From NCBI RefSeq assembly GCF_000526315.1, contig NZ_JAFV01000001.1:3226501-3290500 (forward strand): a stretch of DNA of 64,000 nucleotides, written 5' to 3'. Shown here piece after piece: positions 3,143 to 60,312 of the stretch. Each line of letters opens with the position of its first letter. Position 1 is the first letter of the stretch. Below the pieces are notes generated by a model. It worked only from the letters and a program-made list of their open reading frames with translations, was not told the origin of the DNA and ran no database searches. Both the position numbers and the translations under genes were made by a program. The stretch comes from Methylopila sp. 73B (GTDB taxonomy: Bacteria > Pseudomonadota > Alphaproteobacteria > Rhizobiales > Methylopilaceae).

Positions 3143-4150
3143 TCACCACGCCTTTTCGACCGCGTATCCCGCCTGTCGGTAGAGCTCGACCAGCCCTTTC
3201 GGACCAGGCAGATGCAGCGCGCCGACCGCGACGAAGGCCCCGCCGTCATCGATGAGCGCCCGGGAGCGTTCGGCCATCAGGGTGTTGCGACGGTCCACCA
3301 GCTCGGACATGAAATCCGCGTAGGCCTCGACGTCGAAGCCCGCGCCGAACAGGCCGCCCTTCATGGCGAGATACCAGCCGACCTTCCGCGCGCGGTACAG
3401 CGCGAGCGTGGTGGTCTGGAGATCGCCGCCCGCCGCCGGGGTCGCGACCGTGTCGCGGATCATGCGGCGGGCGGTCTCATCCGGAATCTTTGACACGGCG
3501 TCGAGCTGTTCGGTGATGCTCTCGAGACCCACGATCCTGGCGCCGCCGTCCCGCCCGATCCGCTCGACCGCGCCGTCGATGGTCGGCAGCCCCTGCGCCA
3601 TGCGCTTGGTTTCACAGGCCGAAACCTGGAGGGTGATTCCGAGGAACCACGGCTTCAGCGACCCCGCGACCGCCGCGGGCAGGCCGTTCTCCGCGATCCG
3701 ACGTCCGACCTCTTTCCGCTGCGCCTCGTCGAGACCCTCGAGTCCTTTGCCGGAGAAGTCGATGGCGTTGCGGGTGACGTAGGCCACCACCTCGGCCTGC
3801 GCCGCCGCGCCGTTGGCGTCGGCGATCTCGACCGCGACGGCTTTGGCGTCCTTCAGCGCGGCGCGCACCGGCTCCCTGAGGGCGACGAGGTCGGCGTCGG
3901 TCGTGTGCATGGTGCCGAACAGGTAGGACGGCGCGACGTTCGCGGCCTTCGGCGTGATCCGCCACAGCAGGCCTTCGGCGTTCGGCACGGCGCGCGCCTC
4001 CGTCTCGAAGGCGGCGTAGGCCTTGGGGTCCTCCGCCTTCGCCTTGGCGATGAGGTCCCGCCCTTCGCAGGACCGCGCCACGTCCTGCGCGGCCACGGGC
4101 GAGACGACCAGGGCTGCGGCGAATGCTGCGGCGAGGCGACGGAAGAACAT
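3143..4150 (-). CDS. TraB/GumN-family protein, exported
   Basis: A 335-residue protein with a clear N-terminal signal peptide (MFFRRLAAAFAAALVVSPVAA), so probably periplasmic or lipid-anchored outside the cytoplasm. The body matches the TraB/GumN (Tiki-like) fold: SYLFGTMHTTDADLV near the N-terminus and AFVAVGALHLPGPKGLVELY at the C-terminus, the paired GxxH-type motifs of the family. Eukaryotic Tiki relatives are metalloproteases; bacterial function is not established. The start at 4148-4150 was chosen because it gives a proper signal peptide. The longer reading frame upstream is Arg-rich and looks non-coding. Confidence 0.85.
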   Translation of the reverse strand: MFFRRLAAAFAAALVVSPVAAQDVARSCEGRDLIAKAKAEDPKAYAAFETEARAVPNAEGLLWRITPKAANVAPSYLFGTMHTTDADLVALREPVRAALKDAKAVAVEIADANGAAAQAEVVAYVTRNAIDFSGKGLEGLDEAQRKEVGRRIAENGLPAAVAGSLKPWFLGITLQVSACETKRMAQGLPTIDGAVERIGRDGGARIVGLESITEQLDAVSKIPDETARRMIRDTVATPAAGGDLQTTTLALYRARKVGWYLAMKGGLFGAGFDVEAYADFMSELVDRRNTLMAERSRALIDDGGAFVAVGALHLPGPKGLVELYRQAGYAVEKAW

Positions 4151-57690: not shown

Positions 57691-57847
57691 GCGGACATCC
57701 GAGCTGAGGGCCTGTCGGGACGATGGGCAAGTTACGGCCGGGCCAGTGCGTGCTTCGAGACGCCTCGCTATCGCGAGAGGTCCACTCTCATGGAAGCCAG
57801 ACTCATGCCGAGGAGCCCGCTGTTTGGCGGGCGTCGCGAAACACGCA

Positions 57848-57887
57848 TTGGCGGCCAAACAGCCAAACCGCAGCCGCCAACGTTGGC
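57848..57887. repeat. Palindromic hairpin between ppsR and maf
   Basis: TTGGCGGC at 57848-57855 pairs with GCCGCCAA at 57873-57880, and a perfect 12-bp palindrome GCCAACGTTGGC follows at 57876-57887, six bases from the regulator's stop codon. It may end or protect the leftward transcript; no T run is present. Confidence 0.45.
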
Positions 57888-57893
57888 CCGATC

Positions 57894-58760
57894 CTACGTC
57901 GTCGCGATCACGGCGGCCAAGCGCTTGGCGCGGTGCTCGTTCAGCATGGCGATGACGCCGGCGGCCGTCTCCTCGATCGAACGGCGCGTGACGTCGATCG
58001 TCGGCCAGCCGTGCCGGGCGCAGAACCGACGCGACGCCGTGATCTCCGCGGCCACCAGATCCGGGTCCACATAGGCCCCGTCCTGCAGCCGGCCGGGCAT
58101 GGCGCCTTCGAGCCCCAGCACGCGATTGTGCCGGATCGCGACGATGCGCTCGGGCGACGCGACCAGGCCCACGATCAAGGGGCCTTTGAGCTTCTCGAGC
58201 CCGTGCGGCGGGGGAAGGTCGGGAATGAGCGGAATGTTCGCGGTCTTCACCCCCCGGTTCGCCAGATAGATCGAGGTCGGCGTCTTCGACGTGCGGCTGA
58301 CCCCCAGCAGCACCACGTCGGCCGCGGCGAGGTCGTCAGCGTACTGCCCGTCGTCGTGGGCCATGGTGTAGTTAAGGGCGTCGATGCGCTTGAAATAGTC
58401 GGCGTTCAGCACGTGCTGGGCGCCCGGCTGCTTGTTCTGCTCGGTCCCGAGATAGGACCGCAGCAGCGTGAACACCGGCTCCAGCACCGACAGGCAGGGA
58501 CAGCCGAGGTCGCGGCAGCGGCTTTCGAGCTTCCCGATCAGGTCCTCGTCCACCAGCGTGTAGAGCACGATCCCGGGCTCGTCGGCGATTTCGTCGAGCA
58601 CCCGTTCGAGCTGCCGGGCCGATCGCACGAGCGGATAGACATGCTCGATCGACGACGCCGCGGCATACTGGGAGGCGGCGGCGCGCGCCACCGCGACAAG
58701 CGTCTCGCCGGTGGCGTCGGAGACGAGGTGGACGTGGAAGGAGTGGCGGTCCGGCGACAT
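57894..58760 (-). CDS. Pyruvate phosphate dikinase/PEP synthase regulatory protein (DUF299)
   Basis: A 288-residue bifunctional kinase/phosphorylase of the DUF299 (PpsR/PDRP) family, which controls PEP synthase or PPDK by phosphorylating an active-site Thr and removing phosphate. The P-loop-like GVSRTSKT is at 153-160; HLVSDATGET and ALNYTMAHDDGQ are the family's other motifs. It corresponds to the gene flanking the Caulobacter chromosomal origin opposite hemE. It reads away from the 396-bp gap that holds the putative origin. Confidence 0.93.
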   Translation of the reverse strand: MSPDRHSFHVHLVSDATGETLVAVARAAASQYAAASSIEHVYPLVRSARQLERVLDEIADEPGIVLYTLVDEDLIGKLESRCRDLGCPCLSVLEPVFTLLRSYLGTEQNKQPGAQHVLNADYFKRIDALNYTMAHDDGQYADDLAAADVVLLGVSRTSKTPTSIYLANRGVKTANIPLIPDLPPPHGLEKLKGPLIVGLVASPERIVAIRHNRVLGLEGAMPGRLQDGAYVDPDLVAAEITASRRFCARHGWPTIDVTRRSIEETAAGVIAMLNEHRAKRLAAVIATT

Positions 58761-59156
58761 GAAAGCTGAGAGCCTCTAGCGGTGGAACCGCGACCGGATG
58801 GCGGCGTTTAGCGCGGTCGATCCGGGCGTCGGAATCCCGGGACGACCGGTCGACGACCCGGTGGACGACTGTGGACGAATTAGCCTCGCCCCGCCCCTGC
58901 GTCCGACACTGTCGCCGAGCCCCCGATAATCATCAACACCGCCGCGCGACGGGATAACGATCCATGGGTCCGCGTCCGAAAAGGTGAAGAACCCGTTAAC
59001 GCCTTGAGACTCATGGTTTCGCCACAGGTCTTAAAAAATGGTTAACGCCGGCCAAGGTGTGGACGCCTTGTGGAGGGCGAGGAACGGCTGTAATCCGCCC
59101 CCCTAGAAAAAGAAACAGAAGACTCAACTCCAGATTCTAAGAGAGGGCCTCCGCCG
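58761..59156. other. Putative chromosomal replication origin (oriC)
   Basis: A 396-bp gene-free gap between divergent ppsR-type and hemE genes. Its content is unlike the rest of the window: a perfect CtrA box (59031-59045), TGTGGA repeats like DnaA boxes at 58870-58878, 59058-59066 and 59069-59077 plus GGTGGACGA at 58860-58868 and a TTATCC-like one at 58949-58957, three GANTC sites, and AT-rich stretches at 58978-59047 and 59101-59146. All genes shown on the left run leftward and on the right rightward for several kb, as expected of leading strands. The Caulobacter origin lies in the same gene context beside hemE. Confidence 0.72.
59031..59045 (+). promoter_or_regulatory. CtrA binding site (TTAA-N7-TTAA)
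   Basis: A perfect copy of the full CtrA consensus, TTAA, seven bases, TTAA. In Caulobacter such sites in the origin let CtrA repress initiation and regulate hemE. It lies 112 bp upstream of the hemE start and within the AT-rich segment. Confidence 0.7.
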
Positions 59157-60230
59157 TTGGTAAGTCCTGCGAACAACCTCGCGACTCCTATCCCTGAGGC
59201 GAGCGGCTCACGCTTCCTGAAGGCGCTCTCCGGAGAGACGCAGACGGTCCCTCCGGTCTGGCTGATGCGCCAGGCGGGACGCTACCTCCCGGAGTATCGC
59301 GCGCTGCGCGCCCAGGCCGGCGGCTTCCTCGATCTCTGCTACACGCCGGACCTTGCGACCGAGGTGACGCTGCAGCCGATCCGACGCTTCGATCTCGACG
59401 CCGCCATCCTGTTCTCCGACATCCTCGTCGTGCCGCACGCGCTCGGCCAGGATGTGCGGTTCGTCGAAGGCGAGGGTCCGCGGCTCGATCCGCTGGCGAA
59501 CCGAGCGGAGTTTGCGGCGCTGAAACCCGAGATCGACCTCGGGATGCTCGCGCCGGTCTACGAGACCGTGGCGCGTGTGCGCGCCGAGCTTGATCCGTCG
59601 AAGGCGTTGATCGGGTTCTGCGGCGCGCCCTACACGGTCGCGACCTACATGGTCGGCGGCCGCGGCGGCGAGGAGCAGGCGCCCGCCCGCAAGCTCGCCT
59701 ATAGCGACCCCGCGGCCTTCCAGGCGCTGATTGACCTGCTGGTGGACGCCTCCGCGGCGCATCTCCTGGCGCAGCTCGAGGCCGGCGCGGACGCGGTGCA
59801 GATCTTCGACAGCTGGAGCGGCGACCTGCCGCCGGCCGAGTTCATGACCTGGTCCGCGTCGCCCATCGCGGCGATCTGCGCCAGGGTGCGGGCGAGGCGG
59901 CCGGGCGCGAAGATTCTCGCGTTTCCCCGGGGCGCCGGCGCGAAGCTGAAGGCCTTTGCCGAAGCGGTGCCCGCCGACGCGATCGGGCTCGCCACCGCCG
60001 AGGACCGCCGCGCCGCCCGCGAGGCCGTTCCCGCGCACGTGGCGCTGCAGGGCAACGTCGATCCGATCGCGCTGACGGTCGGAGGCGCTGCCCTGGACGC
60101 GGCCGTCGACGGCGTGCTGGCCGACCTCGGCGATCGGCCGCTGATCGTAAACCTCGGCCACGGCGTACGTCAGGAGACGCCGCCCGAGCATGTCGCCCGG
60201 ATGGTTGCGCGGGTGCGGCGGGCGGGCTGA
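59157..60230 (+). CDS. hemE: Uroporphyrinogen decarboxylase
   Basis: A 357-residue enzyme that decarboxylates uroporphyrinogen III to coproporphyrinogen III. Signatures: PPVWLMRQAGRYLPEYR and GFCGAPYTVATYM with the catalytic Asp in LFSDILVVP. No ATG lies before the conserved MRQAGRYLPEY core, so a TTG at 59157 is the likely start, giving the usual length; only a weak GAGAGGG lies upstream. It borders the putative origin, as in Caulobacter. Confidence 0.94.
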   Translation: MVSPANNLATPIPEASGSRFLKALSGETQTVPPVWLMRQAGRYLPEYRALRAQAGGFLDLCYTPDLATEVTLQPIRRFDLDAAILFSDILVVPHALGQDVRFVEGEGPRLDPLANRAEFAALKPEIDLGMLAPVYETVARVRAELDPSKALIGFCGAPYTVATYMVGGRGGEEQAPARKLAYSDPAAFQALIDLLVDASAAHLLAQLEAGADAVQIFDSWSGDLPPAEFMTWSASPIAAICARVRARRPGAKILAFPRGAGAKLKAFAEAVPADAIGLATAEDRRAAREAVPAHVALQGNVDPIALTVGGAALDAAVDGVLADLGDRPLIVNLGHGVRQETPPEHVARMVARVRRAG

Positions 60231-60248
60231 GGGGCGTCCTGGACGGAC

Positions 60249-60312
60249 AGAGCGCGATCCGGGATCGTCGTCGCAGCGGAGCGCGATTGGCTCACGCGTC
60301 GCGTCCGTGCCG
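60249..60312. repeat. Degenerate copy of the palindromic repeat
   Basis: GATCCGGGATCGTC at 60256-60269 is the reverse complement of the core of the element at 10655-10761, and CAGCGGAGCGCGATTGG follows in the same layout. It lies in the 141-bp hemE-hemJ gap. Confidence 0.5.

Follow-up and report, generated by a model that had tools for sequence, protein, structure and literature searches.

The Caulobacter chromosomal origin occupies 404 bp between hemE and a COG1806 gene, according to PMC1914354. Its DnaA sites range in affinity from moderate to very weak, as summarized in passages of a 2015 review (PMC4468827), and an excerpt of PMC8959179 places a non-coding RNA, CcnA, within it. The same review passages report no CtrA sites in the origins of bacteria other than Caulobacter species, with Rickettsia prowazekii as a possible exception; CtrA is further reported not to bind the origin of Sinorhizobium meliloti (PMC4433202) or of B. 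abortus (PMC2877005).

Here we analysed a 64,000-nucleotide stretch of Methylopila sp. 73B, referred to as the window (C1:3,226,501–3,290,500; contig C1 has 4,381,575 bases, and the 4.38-Mb genome is in two contigs), in which the original prediction had recognized an oriC beside hemE. The model it had in mind, the Caulobacter origin next to hemE with DnaA and CtrA sites, agrees with excerpts of the literature on the hemE/COG1806 neighbours (PMC1914354) and on the sites (PMC4468827, PMC8959179). We conclude that the gap is very probably oriC of the Methylopila chromosome, located where Caulobacter has its origin, while the CtrA, DnaA and GANTC steps put forward below are read from the sequence. 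The combination of motifs, the conserved neighbours, the Caulobacter-like place and a regional strand switch all support the assignment.

The gap has the predicted limits and a length of 396 bp. To its left, a PF03618 (DUF299) gene, which we take to be the COG1806 family, starts at 58760 on the minus strand; to its right, hemE starts with a TTG at 59157, the most upstream ATG, GTG or TTG available. The two genes are divergent, so that the proposed flip in gene direction at the gap stands. By HemE, the nearest named relative is Methylopila capsulata (96%). The genome encodes DnaA, CtrA (422 bits against a curated cut-off of 350), GcrA and one protein with a RAMA domain, as in CcrM. The features are as follows (window positions).

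57894–58760, minus strand: left flank, PF03618 (DUF299, COG1806) kinase-pyrophosphorylase gene (Pfam Kinase-PPPase, E 1.5e-84)
58761–59156, no strand: putative oriC (motif combination, synteny, nearby strand-bias switch)
58860–58875, minus strand: left DnaA-box-like pair GGTGGA/TGTGGA, 10 bp apart (conserved block in a 7-sequence alignment)
58931–58938, plus strand: conserved CATCAACA element (invariant in 7 of 7 aligned sequences)
59018–59026, plus strand: weak DnaA-box-like TTCGCCACA, immediately left of the CtrA box (2 mismatches from TTATCCACA)
59031–59045, no strand: full CtrA box TTAA-N7-TTAA (sequence match; spacing to DnaA cores conserved)
59058–59074, minus strand: right DnaA-box-like pair, TGTGGA twice at an 11-bp distance (conserved; rare genome-wide)
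59089–59103, plus strand: conserved TGTAATCC and C-run leading into the candidate unwinding tract (alignment)
59102–59151, no strand: A+T-rich purine tract adjoining hemE, candidate DNA unwinding element, two GANTC inside (least stable 50-mer)
59157–60230, plus strand: right flank, hemE, uroporphyrinogen decarboxylase, TTG start (Pfam URO-D, E 1.1e-107)

All four sequence features attributed to the gap were recovered. The several TGTGGA repeats are three exact cores (58870, 59058 and 59069), accompanied by a GGTGGA at 58860; because no site in the gap comes within one mismatch of the DnaA box TTATCCACA, we regard these cores as weak DnaA-box-like sites. At the conserved CATCAACA element, TCATCAACA is two mismatches from TTATCCACA and possibly represents a further weak DnaA site, and at 59018–59026 GCCACAG is kept in 5 of the 7 aligned sequences, the window included. 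The perfect CtrA box reads TTAAAAAATGGTTAA, the GANTC sites number four (58832, 59008, 59121 and 59133), and the G+C content of the gap is 0.61 against a mean of ~0.70. The right DnaA pair ends ~28 bp before the purine tract, whose instability is equalled at 2 of the 63,951 starts in the 64 kb, itself included. A single candidate IHF site, at 58997, has one mismatch. No Rfam family reached its gathering score over 57800–60300.

Across the whole window, no run of three DnaA-trios followed a box with up to four mismatches at spacers of up to 16 bp. When the gaps of relatives were included, trio arrays were found in 17 of 72 at up to four mismatches (4.2 in shuffles) and in 0 of 72 at up to two. 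Reading the purine tract itself (TAG AAA AAG AAA) as DnaA-trios was rejected, the polarity being wrong for boxes on its left and the formal search returning no array. As a separate observation, three hemE gaps from Parvibaculaceae and Roseomonas MAGs (L083, L132, L136) carry a strong TGATCCACA box and, after a short spacer, a CTA triplet, a layout that by eye is nearer to Bacillus-type unwinding than that of the window; at up to two mismatches, a three-trio array occurs in no gap.

How often such motifs come together by chance was gauged on 61,305 other 396-bp segments, taken at a 20-bp step from 1.24 Mb of the 4.38-Mb genome. None held three cores together with a CtrA box. Taken singly, at least three TGTGGA cores were found in 28 segments (from two places), a full CtrA box in 172, at least four GANTC in 191, and an A+T content as high as that of the gap in 1,525. 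Genome-wide, TGTGGA-N3..12-TGTGGA occurs at four places, namely 775,481, the gap (3,285,558), 3,892,276 and 4,074,637, the last as a triple. This triple (C1:4,074,637–4,074,664; L047:4637–4664) has its cores in an 11-bp phase directly upstream of a minus-strand gene, named by eye as 2-hydroxy-3-oxopropionate reductase-like, and is a possible DnaA titration or regulatory site. It was dismissed as a rival origin, as the surrounding samples sit on a rising skew slope. A plasmid origin was likewise discarded, with no match among 72,556 plasmid records.

The arrangement recurs among relatives. A HemE search kept 80 loci, the best 80 of at least 537 relatives, and 71 of these 80 have a divergent PF03618 gene upstream of hemE; of the nine without a PF03618 match, five have an upstream stretch shorter than 4 kb. 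The other four (L090, L104, L121, L137) have the full 4 kb, and there the origin neighbourhood may have been rearranged. In 72 gaps (the window plus relatives' gaps, ragged gene starts included), the count of TCCACA/TGTGGA is 195 where 13.9 are expected, with a core in 70 of 72; full CtrA boxes number 32 against 0.2 and GANTC 324 against 154.8. In 65 of the 72, against 25.2 expected by length, the least stable 40-mer falls within the 150 bp next to hemE. In the 7-sequence alignment, scored on the five sequences other than the window and M. capsulata, column conservation is 98% for TGTGGA, 93% for CtrA, 66% for GANTC and 59% for the rest. The conservation of the whole core set was matched by 0 of 111 rigid shifts, and that of single cores by 24, 24 and 9 of 310; the CtrA box was matched by 17 of 301 shifted controls and GANTC by 2 of 11. 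Conservation at the GANTC sites is therefore nothing special, and the CtrA box by itself is modestly conserved. The conservation of the gap among relatives, which had been proposed as a check, is thus borne out by its neighbours and its TGTGGA columns.

The distance between the CtrA box and the DnaA cores is a further regularity. Of the 72 gaps, 26 carry a full box and 11 more have a one-mismatch box only. Within 20 of the 26, the full box has a TGTGG at a distance of 26, 27, 37 or 38 bp: spacings of 27 and 38 bp are shared by the window, three other Methylopila and all 7 Microvirga gaps, and 37 bp by all 9 Methylobacterium gaps. Six of the 7 Microvirga gaps (L088, L103, L110, L124, L126, L130) also carry a pair of full CtrA boxes separated by 59 bp. 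Twelve gaps (Rhizobium, Neorhizobium, Hoeflea, Flavimaribacter and one MAG), which we presume to form a Rhizobiaceae-like group, contain no full box, and six of them have a one-mismatch box. None was found in two Xanthobacteraceae-labelled gaps either, nor in two near relatives of the window (L073 and L075), each of which has a one-mismatch box.

An order-wide search matched the CtrA-DnaA pattern in 114 of 297 genomes, a position-free count that means little alone. Among the 30 matching loci listed, six are at hemE, all with a spacing of 27 or 37, and are not independent because five of the six belong to one genus; among the 24 away from hemE, 27 or 37 occurs in none and 38 in two. Ten of 20 further, hand-picked stretches are at hemE, nine of them with 26, 27, 37 or 38 among their spacings. 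In the tenth (L226, genome G110), which comes from another family, f46, the full CtrA box and TGTGGA are spaced by 22 bp, and near-identical strings occur in G136 and G180 of that family. Within the window's genus, the pattern is found in 7 of 10 other genomes, always at hemE and spaced 27/38, 38 or 26/37, and has no match in the remaining three; three of the seven, M. capsulata, M. jiangsuensis and M. turkensis, were already counted among the gaps.

These spacings tip the balance slightly towards the view that much of the Hyphomicrobiales, with Methylopila, Microvirga and Methylobacterium as the minimum, has its chromosomal origin directly silenced by CtrA, from a box that keeps 27 and 38 bp (in Methylobacterium 37) to phased DnaA cores. 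If this is true, direct CtrA control of initiation is either ancestral, with Rhizobiaceae and Xanthobacteraceae having weakened or lost it, or was regained outside Caulobacter. The spacing matters because PMC4468827, in the passages noted above, sees no CtrA sites in origins beyond Caulobacter species, R. prowazekii possibly excepted. Replication may still be under direct CtrA control in the three genera that keep it, and Methylobacterium offers a place to study how that control was lost or gained. In the open-licence literature, we found nothing on Methylopila together with the replication origin, and no title or abstract there concerned CtrA sites in Methylopila, Microvirga or Methylobacterium origins.

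Strand bias locates the start of replication more coarsely. Cumulative skew over 40 evenly spaced samples of 20 kb each was lowest at ~3.2–3.45 Mb and highest at 1.1 Mb. On contiguous sequence from 2.97 to 3.65 Mb (7,500 bases masked), the cumulative G-C minimum is at 3,289,068 (−2775), 3.6 kb from the gap centre, with a near-tied minimum at 3,440,053 (−2752); the values at the gap, parS and dnaA are −2687, −2599 and −2405. A k-mer model trained elsewhere in the genome, for which the leave-one-out sign was correct in 26–29 of 36 training stretches, had its minima at 3,285,938, 3,285,751, 3,286,380 and 3,286,701 for k = 3, 5, 6 and 7, and at 3,272,225 for k = 8. Its bootstraps at k = 6 fell at 3,193–3,194 kb (15 of 30; the adjoining stretch lies outside the data) and at 3,284–3,286 kb (6 of 30), and were discarded as a source of an interval, the scatter being too wide. 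The most strand-biased octamers, which include GGGCAGGG (62 to 6), switch at 3,319,985 (top 5, 10 and 25) or 3,312,846 (top 50), and these points beat the gap by 1.0, 6.3, 14.1 and 3.1 units for the top 5, 10, 25 and 50; dnaA scores 8.6 units worse than the gap (top 5). Because the top octamers switch 27–35 kb right of the gap, at parS, the strand switch is not resolved to the gap itself. Thus, of the skew check attached to the original prediction, the part concerning a minimum near the gap and a higher value at dnaA held, and the octamers did not follow. The zone 3.28–3.32 Mb fits an origin best, the gap and parS are not separated by strand bias, and dnaA is disfavoured; within the zone, the gap was chosen because of its motifs and homology.

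The opposite end of the chromosome gives a reference point. A dif-like site with two mismatches at C1:1,140,816 (L066) places the terminus, and GGGNAGGG switches strand within ~5 kb of 1.141 Mb, at this site. If C1 is taken as circular, arithmetic gives arms of ~2.14 and 2.24 Mb from the gap to the dif-like site and puts the point opposite the latter at ~3,331,600. We abandoned this point as a means of choosing between the gap and dnaA, since it falls midway, about equally far from both.

Initiation at dnaA, as in many bacteria, would put the origin 93 kb to the right of the gap. The point opposite the dif-like site sits no worse with that position, but both the skew and the octamer score there are poorer than at the gap, and no examined segment near dnaA holds three or more cores; we consider it highly improbable. 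A position elsewhere in the zone, near parS and parB at 3.31–3.32 Mb, is a better contender, though still quite unlikely. Two perfect parS sites (3,314,066 and 3,316,132) and parB (3,317,705) lie there, 28–31 kb from the gap for the parS zone, and it is there that the octamers switch. The gap would then be a mere conserved divergent promoter region, in keeping with two promoter-like matches in it or at its edge (58903–58930, plus strand; 59163–59134, minus strand; 0.0 expected from shuffles), and the purine tract could serve as the leader of hemE. This account, however, is opposed by the lack of any examined segment near parS with three DnaA cores, and by the wide recurrence of the gap layout and its resemblance to the Caulobacter origin as outlined in part of PMC1914354.

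A different doubt concerns the role of CtrA rather than the site. CtrA regulates many promoters, and the box, in a gap that is the origin, might control transcription of hemE or of the PF03618 gene and not initiation. Both promoter-like matches would suit this, and the Caulobacter CtrA acts on transcription of hemE as well, as one section of PMC8959179 has it. What speaks against such a role is the box-to-core spacing, unchanged across Methylopila and Microvirga and almost unchanged in Methylobacterium, and we hold a purely transcriptional box to be possible but doubtful.

Taking the gap as the origin, a plausible sequence of events can be proposed from its layout. DnaA would fill the weak sites of the left (58860–58875) and right (59058–59074) pairs and melt the unstable purine tract (59102–59151) beside hemE, where the helicase would be loaded. 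Sitting at 59031–59045, with a weak DnaA site on one side and the right pair on the other, phosphorylated CtrA would shut DnaA out until CtrA itself is removed, and may in this way directly control initiation in Methylopila; the Caulobacter reading in which CtrA excludes DnaA, as set out in passages of PMC4468827 and PMC8959179, fits this layout. CcrM, by methylating GANTC, would label origins that have just been copied. The binding, melting, methylation and timing steps are all predicted from sequence.

Sinorhizobium meliloti belongs to the same order as Methylopila, and its chromosomal origin is likewise of the DnaA type. Unlike the Methylopila gap, that origin is described, in the relevant part of PMC4433202, as having no CtrA motifs and not being bound by CtrA. 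The basal unwinding system of B. subtilis and other bacteria (DnaA-box, GC-rich spacer, DnaA-trios) resembles the gap in that a C-run and then an unstable tract lie beside DnaA-like sites, and differs in its trios, of which the window has no run of three. The Rickettsia and Wolbachia origins share the hemE flank; in the account of PMC1914354, they measure 383–455 bp with an A+T content above that of the genome, but those genomes are very A+T-rich and in Wolbachia COG1253 replaces COG1806. Closest is C. crescentus Cori, with the same hemE/COG1806 neighbours and ~400 bp (PMC1914354), weak DnaA sites, CtrA sites near DnaA sites and an A+T-rich part (passages of PMC4468827 and PMC8959179). The Methylopila gap departs from it in having one full CtrA box instead of five (PMC8959179, same passages), parS ~28–31 kb away instead of ~8 kb (an excerpt of PMC6399470), and dnaA at 93 kb. 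Thus, the location of the origin is already known from Caulobacter and Rickettsia, whereas the fixed-spacing CtrA box in Hyphomicrobiales origins goes beyond what PMC4468827, PMC4433202 and PMC2877005 report in the parts that bear on it.
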